A DNA stretch of 36,693 nt from Thermococcus sp. JdFR-02. GTDB taxonomy: Archaea; Methanobacteriota_B; Thermococci; Thermococcales; Thermococcaceae. The notes beneath the pieces were generated by a model, which saw only the letters and a list, made by a program, of their open reading frames with translations, had not been told where the DNA came from and made no database searches. Shown here piece after piece: positions 6,753 through 36,347 of the stretch (position 1 is the stretch's first letter; each line of letters starts with the position of its first letter). The stretch covers positions 1 through 36,693 of the forward strand of contig MTLP01000038.1 in NCBI GenBank assembly GCA_002009975.1, written 5' to 3'. The position numbers and the translations under genes are program-made.

Positions 6753-8759
6753 ATGAACCCTCTTTTTCAATTCTTTAGTTTTTTCAAGCCAAAGAGAAGA
6801 AGAGCACTTGCACCACTAGCAGTATTAGCAATAATAGCAATTGTCTCAATTGCCTCTGCAGCAGTTACGTACTATGTTACTAAAGAGGACTCTAAAACGT
6901 CTATGACAAGTTACAGTGCATCACGTTATGCAAATCAAACAACTATCACAACTGATGAGGATTTGCTTGAAAGTAAGCAAATTGTCCAAGAGGCAAATCA
7001 ACAGGCTTATCAAAAGATTGCAGAGTTGAATGCAAAGTTGAGAAGCGATCTAACTACTTATGACATTACAGAAACCGGAGCAACTGGAGATTTATGGGCA
7101 AGAGTCTTTGGTCCTGAGAAGATTTATGGATTTTCAGCATTTCCAGTGCAGATTAAAGTTTTCACAAAAGAAAGCCCAATTCCATTTTCAGTCGTTCATA
7201 TAAGATCCGTTAAGGTTTATCTGAAAGATGAAGATGGCAACATTCTTTGGACAAGAACATGGGACTATGGAACCGGATCAGAAGGCTTGAATGGGGAATC
7301 AATAGTTTATTCAACAATCTTGAAAGTTCCAGATCCATTTATTTACCAAGTTGAAAGTGCCATCAACACAGGAGCAATCTCAAAGAACTTAATCGAGAGT
7401 ATTTTCAATGCAAGCACAAAGGCTTGGGAAATACATGTTGATGTTGATGCTTATAGAGAAATGTATCAGAGCACTCCAGTCTCAAGCGTCAATGATTGTC
7501 AGGCTCAAGGAGGCAAGTGGGATTCTCAAACAAATACTTGTTATGTCTTTGTCAAAAATGTTGAGATCAATTATCATGTTGAAACCACCAGTGCATGGAG
7601 ACATGTAACGAGGGCAAAGGATGTTGCCCTCCTAGATGAGGGCATGTATGCAAGTTTACCAATTAAATTCCTTCAGACAAATGAAGCTAGTAAATGGGCT
7701 CTTTATCAAGAGAAATTTGCTGGAGCCCTCTCGAACTTCATAATCCTTACTTATGCGACTCCAGTACATATAATGGGCTCAACAGCTGATTATAAATTCT
7801 TCATTGCTCCAAATCCCGGATACTTTGATCCTTTGAACGTTACATTTAGTGATGATTTCAGATTTGCGTCAGTAAGAGTTTACAAGGATGGACATTGGGA
7901 ATTGGCTGACAGTATAAGAGGAGATTTGGGAACGTTATCTGATGACTCAAGTGTTGAAAAGGTCCTTAATGTTAGATATACAACTGGAGATGATGTTCTA
8001 ACTTACAGGAGCTTTGGACTTGTGTTGTTCACCATAACCCGGGATGATGGGCAACAAATTAAAGTTTGGCTTGTTGCAGAGCCTGATGTTTCAGTTTTGC
8101 AAAATACAAGAGTTGTTTTAGATGATAATCAAGTTGAAATGCTTGCTCAAGTTGCAAGCGATAACCAGATTTCTGAGGATGAAAGAGAGAAGATAATTCA
8201 AACTGCGAACACTCTCATTAATGGACTTAGAGAGAAAATTGATCAGGCTGAGCAGTTAAAGACTAAAGCACAAAATATGGGCAATTCTCAAGCAAAAGAT
8301 TATGCAGAAAAGGCAATTTGGACTTATAATGAGGCAATTAAGGCTTTAGAGAAAGCTAAGGATACAGATGATTCTCAAATGTTTCTTAATTGGTTAAATG
8401 TAGCAAAGAAGTTTGAGCAAGCCGGTGATTTTTACACTAATGCAGCTGATAAAGCTCTCTATAATGAAATCGAGCAAGCCAAGTTAGATGCTAAAGCCGC
8501 AGAGGATCTTGTGAATCTTGCTAATGAGTATAAGCCAGGATTTAATTTAGGTTCCCTTCTAAGCGGAGATCTTCCGTTGGGACTTTCTGAAATGGACATT
8601 GTAGTGATAGTCATTGGCTTCATCGTTGCCTGGTTTGGAAGACAAATGTTTGGCAGCCTTGGAGCCCTTGCAGGCTTAATCGTCATCATTGGATGGTTTG
8701 CAGGAAAAGGAATTGGAATGGGTATTGATTGGCTTGTTGATAAGTTGAAATTCTGGTAA
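6753..8759 (+). CDS. Large membrane-anchored extracellular protein, core gene of the surface module
   Basis: 668 residues. Basic N-terminus (FKPKRRR) then a membrane helix (about 20-42), a long extracellular region with beta-rich parts and few Cys (a near pair around QAQGGKWDSQTNTCYV), then a helical coiled-coil-like segment (about residues 455-595: QVASDNQISEDEREKI onward, Ala/Glu/Lys-rich), and two C-terminal hydrophobic segments (about 615-660). Start ATG 6753 has GGAGGTGAG just before it. Anchored at both ends with an extended middle, it could span or shape an envelope. Virus-like elements of Thermococcales carry comparable large membrane proteins; homology was not tested. Confidence 0.65.
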   Translation: MNPLFQFFSFFKPKRRRALAPLAVLAIIAIVSIASAAVTYYVTKEDSKTSMTSYSASRYANQTTITTDEDLLESKQIVQEANQQAYQKIAELNAKLRSDLTTYDITETGATGDLWARVFGPEKIYGFSAFPVQIKVFTKESPIPFSVVHIRSVKVYLKDEDGNILWTRTWDYGTGSEGLNGESIVYSTILKVPDPFIYQVESAINTGAISKNLIESIFNASTKAWEIHVDVDAYREMYQSTPVSSVNDCQAQGGKWDSQTNTCYVFVKNVEINYHVETTSAWRHVTRAKDVALLDEGMYASLPIKFLQTNEASKWALYQEKFAGALSNFIILTYATPVHIMGSTADYKFFIAPNPGYFDPLNVTFSDDFRFASVRVYKDGHWELADSIRGDLGTLSDDSSVEKVLNVRYTTGDDVLTYRSFGLVLFTITRDDGQQIKVWLVAEPDVSVLQNTRVVLDDNQVEMLAQVASDNQISEDEREKIIQTANTLINGLREKIDQAEQLKTKAQNMGNSQAKDYAEKAIWTYNEAIKALEKAKDTDDSQMFLNWLNVAKKFEQAGDFYTNAADKALYNEIEQAKLDAKAAEDLVNLANEYKPGFNLGSLLSGDLPLGLSEMDIVVIVIGFIVAWFGRQMFGSLGALAGLIVIIGWFAGKGIGMGIDWLVDKLKFW

Positions 8760-12791: not shown

Positions 12792-14195
12792 ATGGCAATA
12801 TCAACACGAGTATCAGCACAAGAAGAAATCGAAATACCTTACTTCAATCCAAGCAGTGGACCATATCTTGGAAGAGCAATGAGCACAAACAAGAAAGAAA
12901 AGCTTTACTTACCGCTTAAAATTGGAGACGCAAATCACATTTTCCTACTTGGGAAAACAGGCTATGGCAAAACATCATTTATGAAGGCAATGGCTGAAGC
13001 ATTGTGGATTTATTATCATGAAGTATTCGGAAAAGAAGTCATGATAATAATCTTCGAGAGAAAGTATGACTATTCAAAATATCAAAAGCTCAAACAGTTT
13101 TGGATTAAGAGAATACAAGAGCTTGGAAAAGCAGAGGCAAGTAGAAGACATCCCTTTCTTGCCAAATACTTTGAGATACAAGAAAAACATCCACAACTCA
13201 AACACATGCTAGGCTTTCCTGGAGACTTTGCGATGGGGCTCCCAAACTACATCCTCATAGACACTTACATTTCAAAAAGACCATATCCCGTAGACATCTT
13301 CACATGGCATGGACTAAGACCAAGAAGCTTCCCAACAAGAAGAATAGTATTTAGACCAACAAGAAGCATCTACGCAATAAAACTCGATAACGGACCAGAT
13401 GCCGAGGTTGTTGAAGGCCACATCCAATACAAGCACTTAACCTTTGATATGCTCACTCAAAAGTTTGACATTCCAAAAGGAACAGCTTACGGCAGACTAA
13501 TTCGCAAGTATTGGAAAGTTTATGGTGTCCATGACCCAAAGAATCTTTTAAGCATGATTTATTCACAAGAACAAGTAAGAGAAAGCACATGGGAATCCAT
13601 CCGCTCAATCATGGAAGAAATTGCCGCTGATCCTCTTTATGTCAAAGACAACCAAAAGGACTTTACAACCTTTTTGACAACCGACAGAATTAATATCATA
13701 GACTTTTCAGACAATTCTAATCTTGATTTGGACGAGCAAAGGCTTATCATGTATCTATTATGGCAACGATTAAAAGCTATTGCAGGAAAAAAGAGAGTAG
13801 ACATTTGGATTTTCTTTGATGAGATTCAGGATTTGATAGGCACGGCTGGTGAGGCCTCAAAGCACAACCTCGCATGGAGAGCAATGGAAGAACTTTACAG
13901 AAAGGGTAGAAGTCTAAGCATCAACGTTGTTGCAGGAACCCAATACCTCTACAGGCTTCCTATGTCTCTAATAATGGGTGCGGCTCATATAGCTGTAATT
14001 GGAGCCCTTGCGAGCCCGAAAGACTTGGACATTCTGAGAGTTGCAATTATGGATGGTGAAAAGCTGAGAATACCTGTCGAGCATGACAGCTTTGAGGAAT
14101 TCATAAAACGTAGAAAGAAGAAAGGAAGAGGCTGGTTTTCTTTTGATAGAGAATTCACCGTTAAAATGTATTTTCGCCCAAATCAAAGCTTTTGA
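12792..14195 (+). CDS. HerA/FtsK-like ATPase, probable DNA packaging or transfer motor
   Basis: 467 residues. Walker A is LGKTGYGKTS (G54 to S62, K60, T61), set after DANHIFLL, the usual opening of HerA/VirB4/FtsK-type motors. Walker B is WIFFDEIQDL (about residues 340-349), with the aromatic-acidic DEIQ pattern of HerA-group enzymes. Then comes LYRKGRSLSINVVAGTQ, matching the sensor/arginine area of the same fold. No membrane helix. ATPases of this group pump DNA in packaging, conjugation or end processing; a comparable gene is, as I recall, a core gene of pT26-2-like elements. It follows its own promoter and leads two charged partners. Confidence 0.8.
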   Translation: MAISTRVSAQEEIEIPYFNPSSGPYLGRAMSTNKKEKLYLPLKIGDANHIFLLGKTGYGKTSFMKAMAEALWIYYHEVFGKEVMIIIFERKYDYSKYQKLKQFWIKRIQELGKAEASRRHPFLAKYFEIQEKHPQLKHMLGFPGDFAMGLPNYILIDTYISKRPYPVDIFTWHGLRPRSFPTRRIVFRPTRSIYAIKLDNGPDAEVVEGHIQYKHLTFDMLTQKFDIPKGTAYGRLIRKYWKVYGVHDPKNLLSMIYSQEQVRESTWESIRSIMEEIAADPLYVKDNQKDFTTFLTTDRINIIDFSDNSNLDLDEQRLIMYLLWQRLKAIAGKKRVDIWIFFDEIQDLIGTAGEASKHNLAWRAMEELYRKGRSLSINVVAGTQYLYRLPMSLIMGAAHIAVIGALASPKDLDILRVAIMDGEKLRIPVEHDSFEEFIKRRKKKGRGWFSFDREFTVKMYFRPNQSF

Positions 14196-14205
14196 GGTGA
14201 TAAAA

Positions 14206-14967
14206 ATGAGGATATTTGATAGATTTAGGAGAAAGAAAAAGAAGAAAGAACCTGGAGTTATTATGAGTGATGAAGAAGCTGCAAGCTATTTCATAAGCCT
14301 TAAAGAGTTTGACTTAGAAGAAGAAATTGAAAAAAGAGTAGAAGAGAGAGTTAAACAAATGCGCATTTTAGCCCAAAGAATGAGCCAAATCAAGCCAACA
14401 TATCAAAAGCTCCTCATAGCAGTGACTCCTGATGAGGGCTCAATCATCTTAGGACACCCTGTAAGCTACATGATAAACTATGATGAGTACTGGATCTATT
14501 ACCAAGAAAGACCTCCGAGTTGGTTAGATTCCCTCTGGTGGAGCTTGGTAAGATTCTTCGGAAGACAACCACCACACAAAATCCTAAAAGCCCACAAGAA
14601 AATAACCAAATTTAACAACGAAGCCATAACAGTTTACTGCCAATCGATAAGCGAGTATAGAGGAACAGGAATACAAGAAGCTATTCCAGTAGTAGTTCAT
14701 CCAGCAATCAAAGCAGGATGGGAAGCTTATGAAGCAGTAAAAGCTGAGCGTGATAAATACAAAGAAAAGTACTTCACACTCTTAAGAGAAGCAAAAAGGG
14801 AAGTTGAGCTCGCATTACATATTAATCCAAGAGTCAAGGTCTATTGGAAGGAGAAAGAACAAAAAGGCAAGAACATCCAAAAAGAGCATTTTGGAGGCAC
14901 AGAACTCACATTCGACAATGAAAACCCAATTAGGAGAGAGCTTAAAGAAATCGTGGGAGAGGGTTAA
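14206..14967 (+). CDS. Unrecognised cytoplasmic protein linked to the ATPase
   Basis: 253 residues from ATG 14206 (TTGAGGTGAT ribosome site); a start at 14143 would overlap the ATPase by 53 bp. Basic N-terminus (RFRRKKKKK) then charged helices (about 25-60), a mixed domain with aromatic motifs (YDEYWIYYQERPPSWLDSLWW), and a helical tail. The amphipathic aromatic stretch could touch the membrane. Always-together placement with the motor gene suggests an ATPase partner or adaptor. Confidence 0.6.
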   Translation: MRIFDRFRRKKKKKEPGVIMSDEEAASYFISLKEFDLEEEIEKRVEERVKQMRILAQRMSQIKPTYQKLLIAVTPDEGSIILGHPVSYMINYDEYWIYYQERPPSWLDSLWWSLVRFFGRQPPHKILKAHKKITKFNNEAITVYCQSISEYRGTGIQEAIPVVVHPAIKAGWEAYEAVKAERDKYKEKYFTLLREAKREVELALHINPRVKVYWKEKEQKGKNIQKEHFGGTELTFDNENPIRRELKEIVGEG

Positions 14968-28504: not shown

Positions 28505-28590
28505 CAGTCGCTCATTAAAAAATGTTAGGATTCATAACAATAAATAAGAAGAACTTTAATGCTAAAATCAGCTTTGGGGGCGGGCGGGCC

Positions 28591-28971
28591 ATGCAAGAAA
28601 AAGAACAGGAACGGATAGTTGAACCTCTAGCAAAATTTCATGTGAAAGTTACCCGTGCAGGTCAATTCACGTTTCCATATTATACTAGAGTATATTACAA
28701 TTTGGGCATTGGAGATTTCGTTGAGTTAATTGTAAGGACTAAAGATAACACATTACGTGGCTTTTTTATTGCAAGGCTTGGAGACAAAGCAGTAGTAACA
28801 ATTCCTGCCGAGATTAGGGCAAAATTAGATATTCATCAAGGTAATGTTGTTGAAATCATCTTAGTCAGATATTATCGTCTTTCAGACATCCTCGGAGACA
28901 GGTTAAAGGTTCTTGAAGAGCTTGCTCTCAAAGGCTATAAAATCATCACACCTAAGGAGGGTGTTGCATGA
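28591..28971 (+). CDS. Double-AbrB DNA-binding protein, copy A
   Basis: 126 residues from ATG 28591, chosen because the other copies begin a few residues before EPLAKFH. An in-frame ATG at 28522 could give 23 more residues on a leaderless message. Two swapped-hairpin AbrB/SpoVT units: residues 10-48 (LAKFHVKVTRAGQFTFP, GDFVELIVR) and 55-90 (IARLGDKAVVTIPAEIR, GNVVEIILV), then a helical tail. AbrB proteins are DNA-binding repressors of plasmid, virus and transition-state genes. First gene of the replication-side operon, overlapping the next by ATGA. The leader is unusually G-rich (GGGGGCGGGCGGG). Confidence 0.8.
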   Translation: MQEKEQERIVEPLAKFHVKVTRAGQFTFPYYTRVYYNLGIGDFVELIVRTKDNTLRGFFIARLGDKAVVTIPAEIRAKLDIHQGNVVEIILVRYYRLSDILGDRLKVLEELALKGYKIITPKEGVA

Positions 28972-29330
28972 GTGAGAAAGAAAAATATGTTCCTATTGAT
29001 GTGTTACTTCCCGCTGATATCTCTGATTGGTTGGAAGAAACAGCAAAAAAGAAGGGGTTAGACCCAAGTGAATTTCTTTCAGCAATAATAAAAGAGGGTC
29101 TGGACAATATTGAAAAATATGAGAAAGCTATAAAGCTCTTTACAGAGGCAATGAAGCTTGAGGAACAATTATTTAAGAAATATGATGAAATTATGGAACT
29201 TTTTGACTTAAAATCTTATGCAGAACTCTATGACTTGAAAATGAAGCTTCTTGTATTCATGTCAGCGTTAACCCCACCAGAGGAAATGAAGAAAATCTTC
29301 AAACAAAAACAAAATGAGGGGGAGAAATGA
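28968..29330 (+). CDS. Ribbon-helix-helix-like protein with coiled tail
   Basis: 120 residues, overlapping both AbrB neighbours by ATGA. The N-terminus VPIDVLLPADISDWLEETA then LDPSEFLSAIIKEGL reads as strand-helix-helix of the RHH type. The rest is a helical, Lys/Glu-rich tail (about 45-120). RHH proteins regulate toxin-antitoxin, plasmid partition and copy-number genes. Its place between two AbrB genes suggests co-regulation. Confidence 0.6.
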   Translation: MSEKEKYVPIDVLLPADISDWLEETAKKKGLDPSEFLSAIIKEGLDNIEKYEKAIKLFTEAMKLEEQLFKKYDEIMELFDLKSYAELYDLKMKLLVFMSALTPPEEMKKIFKQKQNEGEK

Positions 29331-29764
29331 CTAACGGGCAAATAATAGAGCCTCTAGCAAAATTCCATTCAAGCATAAATATTAAAGGACAGTTAGTTGT
29401 TCCTGCTAAGGATAGGGAGATTTTTGGCTTAAATAAGGGAGATTATCTTGAGATTATTGTCAGATCATTTAAAGTCGTTGATGGAAAGCTGAAGATACTA
29501 AAAAGGGCTTACGTTGTTGTAAGACTCAGCTCCAAGGGTTTAATCACAATTCCTGAAGAAGTGAGGAAAGAGCTAAACATTTCTCCTGGCGATACTGTTG
29601 AAATATTAATCGTAGGTTATCATAAGTTTGAGGAGTTAGTTAGCGAGAGAGGTAAGCAGTTATTGGACAATTTCACCCATGTTTTTGATCACTCTATTCT
29701 CACAACAAAAATAAATAATGATAACGTCATAAACCTCTATAGGAGGCATTACGATGACCACTAA
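29327..29764 (+). CDS. Double-AbrB DNA-binding protein, copy B
   Basis: 145 residues. Same plan as copy A: IIEPLAKFHSSINIKGQL then GDYLEIIVR, an inserted loop (VVDGKLKILKR), then RLSSKGLITIPEEVRKEL and GDTVEILIVGY. A longer, different C-terminus. The DNA for the shared start (GAGCCTCTAGCAAAATTCCA) is nearly identical to that of copy A (GAACCTCTAGCAAAATTTCA), evidence of duplication. Overlaps the next gene by 11 bp. Confidence 0.8.
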   Translation: MTNGQIIEPLAKFHSSINIKGQLVVPAKDREIFGLNKGDYLEIIVRSFKVVDGKLKILKRAYVVVRLSSKGLITIPEEVRKELNISPGDTVEILIVGYHKFEELVSERGKQLLDNFTHVFDHSILTTKINNDNVINLYRRHYDDH

Positions 29765-31040
29765 CGCACCCATAGTAAAAACAAGAAAAGAATTCTGGAG
29801 TCTGATGGAAAGGCATGTTTCAAAGACATATTATCACCTAATTGAAGAGGTTAGGCTACCCTATGAGCACAATTACCTAAAGTCCTACCTGATTGAGGTT
29901 AATTCCCTTGATCCTCGAGAAATTCCAATGTACATACGCCAGATCAAACTAAGACAAACCGAGCTTTTTGCTGAGGTAATCCCAACTGACGATCCTCGTC
30001 TGTATAATGTAATACTCATGGCAAGAACAAGACGAAAAGATAAAATCTCAATTAAAAAGGCAGTATTTTACCTTGAGATATCCCCTCAATCTCCACGCTT
30101 TTGGGTATTCCACACCATCGAAAAGAGCCAGATAACTGACTACTTATTAAAATACCTAATCCTAAAACCTGGCTCAAGGCTAGATAGTCCCTGGTTTTCA
30201 ACACCCCTCCTTTTAGACTTTAGCGAAAAACTCGGAGAGCTAAGAGGATTAGGAATCCAATACAAGTACTCAGAAGTGTTTGGAAATGGGTTTGAAGAAG
30301 AGACTAACGAAGACAAAGACAGAGATTTTGAGGAACTCCCCGAAGGTGTCATCTCGCCTGAAGATATTCCTTTCACAGAGGGAATATTCGCCACCGAGTT
30401 CACAATGAGAATTTGGGGAGAAGTCAGCGGGAGAATCCTGAAGAAATTCATAGAAGACGAAGACCTCCAGAAACTCTCCTCAATTTCCAGCATTGGAATA
30501 AAACGCAAAGAAGACCGTGGAGACTTCATAATCGAAGATATAACCTTTTGGGGTAAATTCCTCAGCAGGGGTACTTCATTCTTGGAACACATCAAAACAA
30601 TTCAAGAGATAGAAAGCAGGTATTTTAGAGTCCTGTCCAAAAAAATAGAAACCGAACTACTCTCCGCTGAAAAGAGCAACTTTGGATATCGCCCCAAAGG
30701 CTCACCCTTCATAATAACTCTGAAAAACACCGAACTAACAGACAATCCCAAGTTCTTTGACTCATTCGTGAACAAGATATTCTCTGGAAAACCACCATTT
30801 AGAATCTTCGGAATTAAGAGCAAAGTAGCAAAAGACGAATACGTCATATACGGAACTGACCTACACAACGGCGACCCAATAGAGCTTGAAGTAACGCCTG
30901 AATGGATTACACTCCATTTACGCTCTATCCCAAATAAGAACGTATGCGGAAACACCATCCTAAGATTCTTTACTAACATCCAAAGATATTATGATCCACA
31001 AGCAAAACTGGAGAGTGAGGAAAATGGCCCAATCTTCTAA
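29754..31040 (+). CDS. Unrecognised 428-aa protein, first gene of a three-gene cassette
   Basis: 428 residues from ATG 29754, inside the end of AbrB copy B. Soluble, mixed alpha/beta, no known motif. Recognisable landmarks are an acidic linker (about 182-205: FEEETNEDKDRDFEELPEG), followed by beta-rich domains (EFTMRIWGEVSGRI; SKVAKDEYVIYGTDLHNGD). The code here is C- and A-rich compared with its left neighbours. It overlaps the nuclease-like gene by 17 bp. Translational coupling to a PD-(D/E)XK protein suggests one complex. Confidence 0.5.
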   Translation: MTTNAPIVKTRKEFWSLMERHVSKTYYHLIEEVRLPYEHNYLKSYLIEVNSLDPREIPMYIRQIKLRQTELFAEVIPTDDPRLYNVILMARTRRKDKISIKKAVFYLEISPQSPRFWVFHTIEKSQITDYLLKYLILKPGSRLDSPWFSTPLLLDFSEKLGELRGLGIQYKYSEVFGNGFEEETNEDKDRDFEELPEGVISPEDIPFTEGIFATEFTMRIWGEVSGRILKKFIEDEDLQKLSSISSIGIKRKEDRGDFIIEDITFWGKFLSRGTSFLEHIKTIQEIESRYFRVLSKKIETELLSAEKSNFGYRPKGSPFIITLKNTELTDNPKFFDSFVNKIFSGKPPFRIFGIKSKVAKDEYVIYGTDLHNGDPIELEVTPEWITLHLRSIPNKNVCGNTILRFFTNIQRYYDPQAKLESEENGPIF

Positions 31041-31995
31041 AGATATCTCCACAAGTACATACCTGACTAATGTCGCCCTAAGACTAGCGAAACGGAAAGA
31101 TAGCCCACTGCGAAAGTACAATTATGAGATTGACATCATAGATTTAACCGATGATATCATTAATCCTGACGTTGTTTTAACGTCATTTGATTATGGCCAC
31201 AGCATTCTATTTGAGTGCAAATCCCAATCCCTCAAAGAGAAACAGCTAAAGAATTATTGGGATTTCATTCAGAATCCACAAATATTTCTACGTGCATTTA
31301 CCCTCGTCGATTATGGTCGGATGGACGACTATTACATTGATGTACCCATACTCACATTGTACTCTCAAATTTGTAATGATTCCCGACTTAAAAAGTACCC
31401 CCTTCCAGTTCTAGAACTGGATCAATCTACAAGCAAAATCTGTCTCGTATGTAACGACTTCCAGCCTGGACACATGTATCAAATCATGCACAAAATCTTC
31501 AACTGCATGGACGTACCTGAACAAATTCTTAAACTCCATACAGCCCACTACATAGATCCCAATGACGACTGCAGAGCCTTCGTAAAACGCCTTCTTGGGG
31601 AAGCCATCCTCACATTTCTGCTAAGTCAAGTGCCATCAGAAGTCAAAACAAAGCCCGCAGAGTCCAATGAAAAGGACATTAAACCCATCGAACTTGAGCC
31701 CGAGGAACTTGCCAAAATAATGTACGGCGACTTGTGGGGCTTAATTTCCCCACAAAAGCAAAAACAAATCCGAAACAAGATTTTGAGAGTGTTCAAAAGA
31801 CTAACCCACAGAGACAACAAGTACCTAAAAGGCATCGCAGAATTCCAAAAAGGAAAATTGATAATCAAAGCTGATGTCTCAACCCATGAAGCCATAAGAA
31901 AATTAGGGACACGTCTTGAAGCCTCTCTCGACTTCGTGATCAACGTAGTATGCAAAGGCAGAGAAACCACAATCGAAGAATTCATGAAGAGGTGA
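31024..31995 (+). CDS. PD-(D/E)XK nuclease-like protein of the cassette
   Basis: 323 residues from ATG 31024 (GTGAGGAAA upstream). The core is Asp49 in INPDVVLTS, Glu64 and Lys66 in SILFECKSQSL, with a preceding DII strand; the spacing fits the restriction fold. Four Cys occur later (LVCNDF, FNCMD, DDCRAF, VVCKG) without a clear zinc spacing. The C-terminal half is helical (KQIRNKILRVFKRL). Overlaps the 428-aa gene and is 7 bp before the 130-aa gene. A cassette nuclease is the likely effector. Confidence 0.6.
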   Translation: MAQSSKDISTSTYLTNVALRLAKRKDSPLRKYNYEIDIIDLTDDIINPDVVLTSFDYGHSILFECKSQSLKEKQLKNYWDFIQNPQIFLRAFTLVDYGRMDDYYIDVPILTLYSQICNDSRLKKYPLPVLELDQSTSKICLVCNDFQPGHMYQIMHKIFNCMDVPEQILKLHTAHYIDPNDDCRAFVKRLLGEAILTFLLSQVPSEVKTKPAESNEKDIKPIELEPEELAKIMYGDLWGLISPQKQKQIRNKILRVFKRLTHRDNKYLKGIAEFQKGKLIIKADVSTHEAIRKLGTRLEASLDFVINVVCKGRETTIEEFMKR

Positions 31996-32002
31996 ACTAA
32001 TT

Positions 32003-32395
32003 ATGAAAGATAAAGTCGAAATCCCAATTACTGTTGAATACTTCGGCGAAGACCCGCTATGGAAACATATAAGCTCAAAAGGGGAGCATAAAGAGGTAGA
32101 ACTCGCAGAGGGTATAAAACTCCGATACGATAGAACCGAGTTTAAACTGGCTTTAGGACATCCGCAAGTGGACTGGTTCTCATTAATAATCATCCCCTTT
32201 ATAGTCGGATATGTCGGGCACAGAACGTACCCATATATCGACAAGGCAATTGACAAATTAGTAGCCCTTATCAAGCAAGGATATATAAAAGCGGTTAAAA
32301 TAGGCGCGAGGAAGATATCCCCAATGCACTATTCAGAAGAAGAGCTCAAGCAGATAATCAAAGAAGCTATTGACGAATATATCAGAGGTGAGTAA
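32003..32395 (+). CDS. 130-aa protein with one hydrophobic segment, third cassette gene
   Basis: 130 residues from ATG 32003. A beta-rich first half (VEIPITVEYFGEDPLW), a hydrophobic segment (about 54-68: FSLIIIPFIVGYVG) that could be a membrane helix or core strand, and a basic-acidic helical end (YSEEELKQIIKEAIDEYI). Its stop touches the ATG of AbrB copy C. No family recognised. Confidence 0.5.
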   Translation: MKDKVEIPITVEYFGEDPLWKHISSKGEHKEVELAEGIKLRYDRTEFKLALGHPQVDWFSLIIIPFIVGYVGHRTYPYIDKAIDKLVALIKQGYIKAVKIGARKISPMHYSEEELKQIIKEAIDEYIRGE

Positions 32396-32791
32396 ATGAA
32401 AGAAGCCAAAGAACCACTGGCAAAGTTTCATGCACAGGTGTTATATAATGGTAGGATAAGTATCCCCGAAAATACTAGATTAAGATATGGTATTGAGAAG
32501 GGGGACTATGTAGAAATTATAATCAGGAAAGTAGGACTTAATAATGGACCAATCCTTGGAAGGGGGCATTTTGTTGCTAGGGTCTCAAATAAGGGGTTAA
32601 TCACAATCCCCAAAGGATTAAGATCCGAACTAAACATCAAGGAAAAGGATGTTGTTGAGATAGTTTTAATAGATTATTTTAAAATCACAGCTCTCCTCGG
32701 TAACAAATCCAAACGCCTCTCCAAAATCATCAAGAAGGGCTATGAGATTTTGGATGAAGAGTCTGAAAAAGAGCTTCTTATTTGGCATTAG
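32396..32791 (+). CDS. Double-AbrB DNA-binding protein, copy C
   Basis: 131 residues, ATG directly after the previous stop (TAAATG). KEPLAKFHAQVLYNGRIS and GDYVEIIIR, then ARVSNKGLITIPKGLR and VVEIVLIDY. Same layout as copies A and B, with a C-terminal helix. Ends the first transcription block; a T-rich stretch (CCCTTTTCTTTTTCG) follows. Confidence 0.8.
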   Translation: MKEAKEPLAKFHAQVLYNGRISIPENTRLRYGIEKGDYVEIIIRKVGLNNGPILGRGHFVARVSNKGLITIPKGLRSELNIKEKDVVEIVLIDYFKITALLGNKSKRLSKIIKKGYEILDEESEKELLIWH

Positions 32792-32796
32792 GGCTC

Positions 32797-32810
32797 CCTT
32801 TTCTTTTTCG
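32797..32810 (+). terminator. T-rich stretch after AbrB copy C
   Basis: CCTTTTCTTTTTCG follows the stop of copy C and precedes a new promoter; probable partial terminator. Confidence 0.3.
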
Positions 32811-32816
32811 TAGTTA

Positions 32817-32834
32817 TGTTCTATTTACAGAACA
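32817..32834. promoter_or_regulatory. Inverted repeat TGTTCT-N6-AGAACA upstream of the TATA box
   Basis: Perfect 6-bp arms at 32817-32822 and 32829-32834, about 27 bp upstream of the TATA box. Could be an activator or second operator. Confidence 0.35.
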
Positions 32835-32860
32835 ATAAATCCCATTAATTTAACAAAACA

Positions 32861-32868
32861 TTTATATA
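32861..32868 (+). promoter_or_regulatory. TATA box of the AbrB-D/replication operon
   Basis: TTTATATA, with a start site predicted at about 32887, inside the paired palindromes. Confidence 0.55.
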
Positions 32869-32874
32869 TTCTTG

Positions 32875-32903
32875 CAACTTAGTTGTAAATAGCAACTGAG
32901 TTG
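32875..32903. promoter_or_regulatory. Tandem palindromes CAACT-N-AGTTG overlapping the start site
   Basis: CAACTTAGTTG (32875-32885) and CAACTGAGTTG (32893-32903), both perfect dyads with a one-base centre, 18 bp apart. They lie right after the TATA box and before the ribosome site of AbrB copy D. A repressor there would block initiation. Confidence 0.55.
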
Positions 32904-32918
32904 TTAGAGGTGTTAATT

Positions 32919-33206
32919 ATGAATACAAACATACTCGCATACTATCAAGCACGAGTTATGAATGATGGGTATAGAATAACAATACCTTACACAACAAGAG
33001 AAAAGTACAACATAAGAGAGGGTGATTATGTAACTGTCAAGATAAAGAAACAACAAGAGGCAATTTTCACAGCAAAAGTATCATCCAAGGGGCTTATAGC
33101 AATCCCACAAAAAATCGTGAAAAAACTTGCCATTCTCCCAAATGACGTAATAGATGTCTCTCTTCTCGAATGTTACCACCCCCCAACGGTGATCCTAAAT
33201 GAGTGA
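32919..33206 (+). CDS. Double-AbrB DNA-binding protein, copy D (short)
   Basis: 95 residues from ATG 32919 (AGAGGTG upstream). AYYQARVMNDGYRITIP and GDYVTVKIKK, then AKVSSKGLIAIPQKIVK and VIDVSLLECY. It lacks the EPLAKFH start and the long tail of copies A-C, so it is the most diverged. First gene of the replication operon; it probably represses its own promoter through the palindromes just upstream. Its stop overlaps the next gene. Confidence 0.75.
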   Translation: MNTNILAYYQARVMNDGYRITIPYTTREKYNIREGDYVTVKIKKQQEAIFTAKVSSKGLIAIPQKIVKKLAILPNDVIDVSLLECYHPPTVILNE

Positions 33207-33585
33207 AAATATCTCTCAAATTATTTCACTCCTTGAAAAGTATGGTATAACTGAGGAGGATTGGAACGGTTTGTATGCTACTCTTCTTCAGCTTGGCATA
33301 AAAGACAAAGCCGAAATCACAAGAGCAATTTACAACTACCTCATAGCAAAATACCCACAACACGTTGCTTTGGGTGTTCTAACAATCATCAGAGTCAAAT
33401 ACTTCAACGAACTCTTCGACAAAGCCTACTTCTTCAACGGTTATCACCTGAGCAAAACTGCACTCCTCGTTTTTGACGAGCTCACAAAGCCAAAACAAGA
33501 GAAAAAGATTCCCCCAAGCGAAATCCAGCCAATTGAGCCAGACCCAAGCACGATAGCATACTGGCTCAAGGAGGTGAAAACATGA
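33199..33585 (+). CDS. 128-aa helical protein upstream of mcm
   Basis: 128 residues, overlapping AbrB copy D by 8 bp and mcm by 4 bp (ATGA). A helical first part (ISQIISLLEKYGITEEDWN) and a Pro/Glu-rich end (KKIPPSEIQPIEPDPSTIA). No family recognised. The coupling to mcm suggests a helicase loader or origin-binding partner, purely by position. Confidence 0.55.
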   Translation: MSENISQIISLLEKYGITEEDWNGLYATLLQLGIKDKAEITRAIYNYLIAKYPQHVALGVLTIIRVKYFNELFDKAYFFNGYHLSKTALLVFDELTKPKQEKKIPPSEIQPIEPDPSTIAYWLKEVKT

Positions 33586-36347
33586 CAGAAACACTTGAAA
33601 AAGTTAGAGAAGCCGCAAGCATGCTCAGAGACAAACTCATTGTCGAAATGCTCAAGCTCATCAAACAAATGGACGACGAAGGCTTAGACAAAATCAACCC
33701 ACAAGCACTAAGCCCAATGCTAAGAGCATGGATCAAAGGTCACTACGGCATAGTCCCAAACACCATCACAAAGGACCTACTCAAAACATACATCGAAGTA
33801 CTTGAAAATTATGGGATGTTCGTTCGGGATACGAACATTGACGAACAAACCGTTCGTGGTGAATTAACAGAGAAAAATAACGAACATCAAGTGTTCGGAG
33901 CGTTCGTATATCGTTCTTTGAAAAAGCAACTTGGTGACGAGAAATTTGAAACATTGCTAAAGAGCATCAAAGAAACATATGGCTTGCCTAGGCCTGTACA
34001 TGCAAATACATTGTTGGTAATGTTAGACATCATGGAAAACGACAGGATTGAGGTAATTCCAATCAGCCTTATTGAAAAGAGGCTCAAAGAGGATGCAGGT
34101 TTCACTAAGAGTATGATAGATAGAATGAGATGGGATTTCTTTGGAAATGGAAATGTTGCAAAGGCTCTTCAGGCTGTTCTGTTTGATGCTGTTGGTATTG
34201 TGAATGGGGAGAAGGCGTTCAAGTTGAAGGATTCTGTTGTTAAGTTCATTAAGGCTAAGGTTCTTGAGCTTTTAGGCTATGAGCAGGAAGCTGAGGAAAT
34301 GCTTGATTACACGAACAATGCTAAGGAATTCCTGAGGAACTTCAGGAAGGATGGGGAGGCAGTTTACCTTGAAAAGATCAAGGACATTGTTCTTGGCGAG
34401 AAGGTTGATTACTTCTATATTGACTACTTGGACTTGGCAAAGTATGATCCTAGGTTGGCAAGGCGTCTCTTTGACGAGCCGGAGTTTGTTCTTGGAGCTT
34501 TTGAGAATGCAGTAATGGAGCTTCAGGAAGAGTTGTTCGAGGAAATTTCGTCAGAGAATCCAGAGTTGTTTGATGAGGAGTTCAAGCCGGTGTTCCTTGA
34601 GGTTCATGTTGGTAATTTCCCACATGTTATTAGACCTCGTGATGTTAGGACTGATTTTGCTGAGAAGTTCGTGGCTGTTGAGGGGATTATTACGTCAGCT
34701 TCGAAGGTTGTTCCGTTCTTTGAGATTGCTACATATGTGTGCAAGCATTGTAGTAAGGAGATTGGTTTGTTCAATAGGCCAACAAGAATACCTGCTAAAC
34801 CACCAAGCAAGTGTCCTGATTGTGATGCCAAGGGTTCGTTTGAGCTTGATGTTAGAAAGTCAAAGAAGGTTGAGATTCAGCATTTTATTGTTAGAGATGC
34901 TCCTGAGATGCTGAATGTTGGTGAGAATGCTAAGGAGCTTGAAGCATATTTGCTCGGTAAAATGGCTGGTGCTGTTGATGTTGGTGATAAGGTAATCTTG
35001 TATGGTATTCTTAGAGTAAAAGAAAGGCTCAGTAAAAAGATTGCTGAGACTGATTACGTTCTTGAAGTCATTCATGTGGAACAGTTGAACAGGGGTATTC
35101 AGCTTGAATTGAGCAAGAAGGACGTTCAAGAGGTTCTTAAGCTCGGTGAGATGTTTGGTGAGGACTTGCCAGATGCCGTTGCACGTTCTATTGCTCCGTG
35201 GATCAGGGGTTATGAGGAAGTCAAGAAGGCGTTGGCGTTGGCTGTTGTTTCTGCTGAGGGTTTGTGGGATAAGAGGACGACGATTCATGTTTTGTTGGCT
35301 GGTGATCCTGGTGTGGGTAAGTCAAGGTTGGCGTTGGATTTGGAGAATGTTGCCCCAAAGTTTCTTTTAGCTGAGGGTGGCGGTTCCTCAAGAGCTGGCT
35401 TAACAGCAAGCTTTGAAAAAGATGAATTGACGGGCAAGTTCACTGTTCGTGGTGGCTTGTTAGTCCTTGGTAGTGATGGAATTGTACTTGTCGATGAGTT
35501 CAGCAATTTGAAGAGAGAGGATATCAATGCGTTGAAGACGTGTATGGAGCATGGTTTTGTTGCTCCTGCAAAGGCTGGAATTTCAAATGTCAAGTTGAGA
35601 GCTACTGCAACTATTGTTGGGACTGCAAATCCAAAAGCTGGCAAAATTGATAGGACAAGGCTTTTGATTGACCAGTTGGATATCCCATTCCCTGTGCTAA
35701 CGAGATTTGACTTGATTTTTGCGTTCTTTGATGAGCCAGATGAAGAGAAGGACGAGGAGATTGGTTGGAGCATTCTAAGTGAGGTTAAGCGCAAGAAGGG
35801 TGAACCTCCAAAGAGGATTATACCTGCGGAGCTTTTGAAGAAGTTGTTTGCCTATGCAAGGTTTAATGTATTTCCAGAGGTTACTGAAGAGGCTCAACGG
35901 CTCATGGTTTCTGAGTTTGTTAAGTTGAGAAAGAAGACAAGCACAAATGGAAATTCTGTCAGCAGACGCATTATGGACGCTCTTGTTAGGCTTAGTTATG
36001 CGCATGCGAAGCTTAGACTTGCTGACAAGGTTGAGAAGGTTGATGTTGAGGAGGCTGTGAGGCTGATTTGGAAGAGTTTGGAGTATGTAGCCTATGATCC
36101 TGAGACTGGTGAGATTGATGTAAGCATTCTCCAAGTTGGAGTTCCTTCCAGAGAAAGGGAGAAGTTCGAGCTGTTTATTAGAGTCATGGAAAATCTTGCA
36201 AGGAAATACGGGAATATCCGAATTGACATTATCAAGAATGTTCTGAATGAAAAGGGGCTAAGTGACGATGAGATTGAAAGATTCTTGGAACGTGGTGAGA
36301 AATTGGGCTATTTGAGACAATTAGGGGATTTTGTCGAATGGTCATAA
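33582..36347 (+). CDS. mcm: MCM replicative helicase with long N-terminal extension
   Basis: 921 residues against about 650-700 in usual archaeal MCMs. The first ~285 residues are extra, helical and unlike standard MCM. The normal N-terminal domain starts near DLAKYDPRLARRLFD. It has a zinc ribbon (C387, C390, C411, C414), Walker A GDPGVGKS (574-581), Walker B IVLVDEF (D638, E639), sensor Asn686 in GTANPK, arginine finger R708 in LTRFDLIF, and a winged-helix end. A DNA helicase, probably hexameric. The first ~80 codons are C/A-rich and the rest G/T-rich. The start overlaps the previous stop; ribosome site GGAGGTGA. Thermococcus kodakarensis is known to carry extra MCM genes in or near integrated elements. 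Confidence 0.9.
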   Translation: MTETLEKVREAASMLRDKLIVEMLKLIKQMDDEGLDKINPQALSPMLRAWIKGHYGIVPNTITKDLLKTYIEVLENYGMFVRDTNIDEQTVRGELTEKNNEHQVFGAFVYRSLKKQLGDEKFETLLKSIKETYGLPRPVHANTLLVMLDIMENDRIEVIPISLIEKRLKEDAGFTKSMIDRMRWDFFGNGNVAKALQAVLFDAVGIVNGEKAFKLKDSVVKFIKAKVLELLGYEQEAEEMLDYTNNAKEFLRNFRKDGEAVYLEKIKDIVLGEKVDYFYIDYLDLAKYDPRLARRLFDEPEFVLGAFENAVMELQEELFEEISSENPELFDEEFKPVFLEVHVGNFPHVIRPRDVRTDFAEKFVAVEGIITSASKVVPFFEIATYVCKHCSKEIGLFNRPTRIPAKPPSKCPDCDAKGSFELDVRKSKKVEIQHFIVRDAPEMLNVGENAKELEAYLLGKMAGAVDVGDKVILYGILRVKERLSKKIAETDYVLEVIHVEQLNRGIQLELSKKDVQEVLKLGEMFGEDLPDAVARSIAPWIRGYEEVKKALALAVVSAEGLWDKRTTIHVLLAGDPGVGKSRLALDLENVAPKFLLAEGGGSSRAGLTASFEKDELTGKFTVRGGLLVLGSDGIVLVDEFSNLKREDINALKTCMEHGFVAPAKAGISNVKLRATATIVGTANPKAGKIDRTRLLIDQLDIPFPVLTRFDLIFAFFDEPDEEKDEEIGWSILSEVKRKKGEPPKRIIPAELLKKLFAYARFNVFPEVTEEAQRLMVSEFVKLRKKTSTNGNSVSRRIMDALVRLSYAHAKLRLADKVEKVDVEEAVRLIWKSLEYVAYDPETGEIDVSILQVGVPSREREKFELFIRVMENLARKYGNIRIDIIKNVLNEKGLSDDEIERFLERGEKLGYLRQLGDFVEWS
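33818..33906. other. Iteron-like cluster, putative replication origin inside mcm
   Basis: GTTCG occurs at 33818, 33822, 33852, 33893 and 33902; CGAAC at 33832, 33842 and 33881 (start positions). They include a 10-bp direct repeat (ACGAACATTG/ACGAACAAAC, 33831-33850). They also form inverted pairs: GTTCG-N5-CGAAC (33822-33836), ACGAAC-N5-GTTCGT (33841-33857) and CGAACA-N5-TGTTCG (33881-33897). The even 5-base gaps are unlikely by chance. The composition of the + strand inverts here (see findings). Together this suggests the element's replication origin. Confidence 0.6.

Follow-up and report, generated by a model that had tools for sequence, protein, structure and literature searches.

Bacteriophage lambda is a known case of a replication origin embedded in the gene of its own initiator, with ori forming part of gene O (PMC5043065, PMC4488673), and the placement that the original prediction called unusual is therefore not without precedent. 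In lambda, inverted iterons inside the initiator coding sequence are read by the initiator's own DNA-binding part, giving a specific origin–initiator pair, and we propose the same for the mcm gene of an archaeal mobile element. The two systems differ in that O is a non-helicase that works with P to bring host DnaB, whereas the gene here encodes an MCM helicase, and in that the repeated words measure ~5-8 bp rather than 19 bp. The protein under study is an MCM helicase whose extension has no Pfam match, and it shows no sign of descent from lambda O.

Thermococcales viral MCMs with an N-terminal winged helix include those of the 'Yamaviridae', TKV4 and the virus-like Thermococcus nautili plasmid pTN3, and the accessible text of a 2026 preprint proposes that such MCMs recognise the origin themselves, no Orc1/Cdc6 or ORB having been found (PMC12934983). 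The MCM described here has the protein architecture given in that text, which names no cognate site, whereas our candidate sites lie inside mcm and come with co-varying words and skew evidence. The backbone of our element belongs to the pT26-2 family, whose origins have been predicted, as here, from skew and repeats; those are often near the rep gene, mostly in intergenic regions or small doubtful ORFs, share no consensus and, unlike the present site, have no link to a reader domain (PMC6972569). In the openly readable literature searched, we found no prior account of these arrays.

Origins of the Orc1/Cdc6–ORB type resemble our proposal in that a winged helix reads repeated sites adjoining the initiator gene; here, by contrast, the sites are inside the helicase gene and ORB-like sequences are not enriched. 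The window, by which we mean the whole stretch of DNA analysed (36,693 bp, an entire contig of a Thermococcaceae genome, G000:C19), holds 19 matches at ≤2 mismatches to TTCCANTGGAAA, taken here as the ORB core, against 22 expected, and none is exact. No Orc1/Cdc6 gene was found among the window proteins scanned with Pfam, a subset of the ORFs. Exact TTCCANTGGAAA sites cluster on host contig C2 (45007-48259), likely a chromosomal origin.

An integrated element whose backbone is of the pT26-2 type lies in the window, and four genes for MazE/AbrB-like DNA-binding proteins lie upstream of mcm (28522-33206).

1361-2221: archaeal integrase (Pfam)
6753-8759: protein with T26-6p Ig-like and helical domains (Pfam)
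33199..33585, + strand: small ORF 5' of mcm; place of a second in-frame array in four relatives, absent in the window
33582..36347, + strand: mcm, MCM helicase of 921 aa with an N-terminal extension of ~246 aa (Pfam PF14551 from aa 247, PF17207, PF00493, PF17855)
33582..33815, + strand: codons 1-78, helical N-terminal domain (AlphaFold model)
33816..33890, + strand: codons 79-103, disordered linker coinciding with most of the array (AlphaFold pLDDT <50)
33909..34271, + strand: codons 110-230, winged helix-turn-helix domain, proposed array reader (AlphaFold mean pLDDT 90)
34107..34142, + strand: codons 176-187 (KSMIDRMRWDFF), second HTH helix, proposed recognition helix, differing between word types

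The encoded protein falls into the Thermococcales mobile-element class of MCMs, in which the core follows a ~200-aa extension with a winged helix. Its full-length identity to the pTN3 MCM is 72%, suggesting that the replication gene was exchanged between element families, which left a pTN3-type mcm on a pT26-2-family backbone. Residues 1-246 match no Pfam family, and the winged helix has no significant sequence match among solved structures. Its fold matches in the PDB are winged-helix proteins, including MarR-type regulators and chains of ORC/MCM complexes, with weak scores (best match E 0.13, TM about 0.5).

33818..33906, no strand: iteron-like array of eight GTTCG/CGAAC words, direct and inverted (word search, shuffles)
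about 33814-33916: conserved cassette frame of the array, ending in TATCGTTC

Exact word counting bears out the predicted eight pentamers in 89 bp, and all lie within the 921-codon frame of mcm. They start at 33818, 33822, 33832, 33842, 33852, 33881, 33893 and 33902, three in one orientation and five in the other, with 10-bp steps along 33822-33832-33842-33852. The gene thus carries multiple short inverted and direct repeats inside the coding sequence of a putative initiator. Second-order Markov versions of the whole window (60 runs) reach at most three GTTCG per 89 bp, and mcm recoded synonymously 5,000 times carries 1.2 words on average and five at most, compared with the eight observed. Whether the array is kept beyond codon need, a question raised with the original prediction, is answered in the affirmative both by these shuffles and by a layout that persists while the words change, as described below. 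A hairpin explains the array poorly: the single-strand folding z-score is -2.1, and every copy, direct ones included, switches word jointly.

33794..34100, no strand: strand-asymmetry switch (detrended GC-skew minimum with third-codon GC and TA change points)

Along the same-direction genes between 28.5 and 36.6 kb, third-codon GC skew flips at 33986 from -0.21 to +0.44 (bootstrap 33815-34115) and third-codon TA skew flips at 34100 (bootstrap 33909-34166), with gene direction unchanged across the flips. The hand counts behind the original prediction, made in six 60-base lines, are exact (left 50 C/27 G, right 23 C/58 G). The skew minimum expected near 33.85 kb is present once the cumulative GC skew is detrended (global minimum of 1301-36693 at 33794); the raw sum has its minimum elsewhere than at the array, and the contig ends 2.8 kb right of the array. 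In pTN3, a complete circle, the detrended minimum is broad and falls at 13924 (mcm orientation), between arrays at 13803 and 14234 and close to the mcm start at 13937, and third-codon TA switches at 14347 (14137-14452). In both the window and pTN3, no block shuffle out of 200 equals the strength of the change points found at the array.

Four other Thermococcaceae genomes contain a pTN3-type mcm 72-74% identical to that of the window (L009, L010, L011 and L012, L011 being the same as pTN3); searches of the viral_contigs and genome_contigs sets by protein, alignment and pattern found no relatives. All four carry an array at the same position in mcm with almost identical spacing, so that the five arrays have spacing in common although their words differ (GTTCG in the window, GTTCC in L009, GTTCA in L010-L012). 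L009-L012 have a second in-frame array in the small ORF that precedes mcm, 431 bp upstream of the one in mcm; it is missing from the window, and its words are GATCG in L009, GTTCC in L010 and L012, and GTTCG in L011. Each array repeats its own word 7-9 times and contains no word of another type, except for one GTTCG in the upstream GATCG array. What the relatives keep is the layout and not the exact GTTCG pentamer, which is replaced by GTTCC, GTTCA or GATCG; since the one is conserved and the other is not, absence of the repeats from relatives, first named as evidence against an origin, is the wrong test. A pattern search of 94 genomes places the exact layout in only two adjacent places within pTN3-type modules.

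The upstream word is always unlike that of the same element's mcm array and, the GATCG type excepted, matches the word of some other element's mcm array. The upstream arrays of L010 and L012 are 85-88% identical to the mcm array of L009 (88% for L010), and that of L011 is 70% identical to the window array. These patterns allow the upstream array to be a decoy, a helper site or a leftover.

Comparison of close relatives connects the words to the winged helix. Outside two divergent islands, L009 and L010 show 97-98% identity across 3.3 kb; one island is the upstream array (~120 bp) and the other a ~320-bp block made of the mcm array and the adjoining winged-helix codons. At the protein level their cores are 98% identical, whereas the array peptide falls to 40% and the winged helix to 60%; L010 and L011, which use the same word, retain 97% and 92% identity in these two parts. 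Likewise, L021, L022 and L023 share 91-94% of the core, 28-41% of the array part and 68-72% of the winged helix. The exchanged block stops directly after the helix formed by residues 176-187, in which L010-L012 differ strongly from the window, making this helix the likely reader of the array. In L024 and L031, a nearly identical winged helix, differing at two residues of the putative recognition helix (LSHSSLKKAM vs LSHNSLKMAM), accompanies different words and different MCM bodies. The predicted winged helix, with which the word is co-inherited, is our candidate for a DNA-binding domain of the initiator specific to the repeats.

Arrays of the same kind recur in distant mobile-element MCMs that have the extension and are 31-39% identical in the core. 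These in-gene arrays sit directly before the winged helix and have their own words: TTTCA in L003, TGCAA in L004, GGAAC in L021, GTTGA in L023, TCCCA in L024, GGGAC in L026, TATCCA in L031, TTCCA in L078 and CCCCA in L081, L003 and L004 coming from the host genome that also contains the window. In 12 genes none of 200 synonymous shuffles reaches the observed array, compared with 1/200 for L081 and 3/200 for L021, and the L022 array is marginal. Chromosomal mcm genes without the extension show no array excess (the observed value is equalled or exceeded in between 18 and 200 of 200 shuffles), and no in-gene array appears in six MCM genes from other archaeal plasmids and viruses. Among extension MCMs, in-gene array and skew switch are both missing from L079, L080 and L082, while L025 has an array ~0.8 kb upstream and none in the gene.

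A T/A switch within mcm codons 60-243 is found in 13 of the 14 array-bearing genes, L003 being the sole one with only a weak switch, and in one of 15 genes without a significant array, namely L022, whose switch is strong despite its marginal array. It is absent from the extension MCMs that have no in-gene array (L025, L079, L080, L082) and from ten chromosomal or short MCMs. The association gives a Fisher p of about 3e-6 when taken naively and 0.007 with related genes merged, both values being rough because the genes are related and the group counts were set by hand.

Two further observations come from other archaeal elements. The mcm of Methanocaldococcus fervens tailed virus 1 (L109) has a third-codon GC switch at codon 99 and no detected in-gene array. 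Within 1.5 kb upstream of mcm, a Methanocaldococcus plasmid (L106) and an Altiarchaeum virus (L107) carry repeat arrays of GATAA and ATATC, respectively, possibly non-coding versions of the same arrangement.

The reading of the array as an origin within mcm is well supported computationally: the skew change at the array is unexplained by gene direction, the geometry is conserved, the words are linked to the winged helix, and arrays and switches occur together in distant genes. From the computed array, layout, word swaps and skew switch we infer binding, helicase loading and initiation, and consider it probable that the array is the iteron part of a theta-type origin, bound most likely by the helicase's own winged helix, at which two forks start. 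In this model the iterons would be written in the disordered-linker codons of the element's own MCM, and the winged helix encoded directly downstream would most likely bind the eight words. The bound domain would gather MCM at the array without Orc1/Cdc6, after which MCM would load as the helicase and two forks would depart in opposite directions; forks leaving both ways would render the + strand G+T-rich on the right and C+A-rich on the left. Lying within ~330 bp of each other, site and reader would be inherited and exchanged together, with words that differ among elements. Counting against the model are the genes in which array and skew switch do not go together (L003, L022), the extension MCMs with no in-gene array (L025, L079, L080, L082), the weak fold scores of the winged helix, and the upstream array, whose word differs from that of the same element's mcm array and is not accounted for by a single initiator of a single specificity.

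The array could instead be mainly an autoregulatory operator through which MCM or another element protein limits mcm transcription, the origin being nearby or elsewhere. Iteron binders often control their own gene, four MazE/AbrB-like regulators are encoded just upstream, and the same co-variation of word and reader would be expected. A position 230-320 nt into the gene would, however, be unusual for an operator, and the skew switch coincides with the array rather than with a boundary between genes and is seen again in distant mcm genes that bear arrays; we regard this alternative as improbable, although an origin in mcm may have an autoregulatory role besides.

It is likewise distinctly unlikely that the array is an origin or partition site read by another element or host protein rather than by the MCM winged helix. 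The mcm and upstream arrays of one element differ in word, which may point to one or more additional readers, but the swapped segment terminates just past the putative recognition helix and no array is present in chromosomal MCMs lacking the extension.

Because two in-frame copies occur in neighbouring genes, we also considered a selfish palindromic cassette that inserts in frame, like the Rickettsia palindromic elements, and has no role in replication. The missing upstream copy in the window and the presence of one type at either place (mcm array of L009 and upstream array of L010) would fit such a cassette. We reject it as highly improbable: the 94-genome search revealed only the two adjacent places and no many-copy spread in unrelated genes, the array moves along with winged-helix codons, and distant mcm lineages have their own arrays at the matching place.

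Chance or codon usage, which GTTC and GAAC might favour by suiting common codons, is rejected with near certainty by the synonymous shuffles of the window mcm and of the 12 genes above, and by the shared layout of relatives with different words.

If the array is an origin, it provides at least a dozen MCM elements apparently without Orc1/Cdc6, including pTN3 of T. nautili and integrated elements of other Thermococcus, with a short candidate site open to testing, and the set of different words offers a way to decode winged-helix recognition. The lambda-style placement of an origin in its initiator would then have arisen separately in archaea, on the helicase itself, suggesting that portable replicons whose non-interfering origins are built in could serve Thermococcus genetics. 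A more speculative and rather doubtful extension is that the MCM replicons of Thermococcales form a lock-and-key code, in which a private word, set in a disordered linker next to its winged-helix reader, is traded with that reader as a cassette between helicases and unrelated plasmid or virus backbones, and the upstream array serves as a decoy or helper that binds rival helicases.

A separate GGTGA/TCACC array lies inside a gene downstream of mcm in L009 (5057-5286, 19 copies in 230 nt) and also in L010, L012 and L021-L024. Its word is constant across elements, unlike those of the mcm arrays, and at the place matching the gene that holds it pTN3 has a zinc-finger gene.
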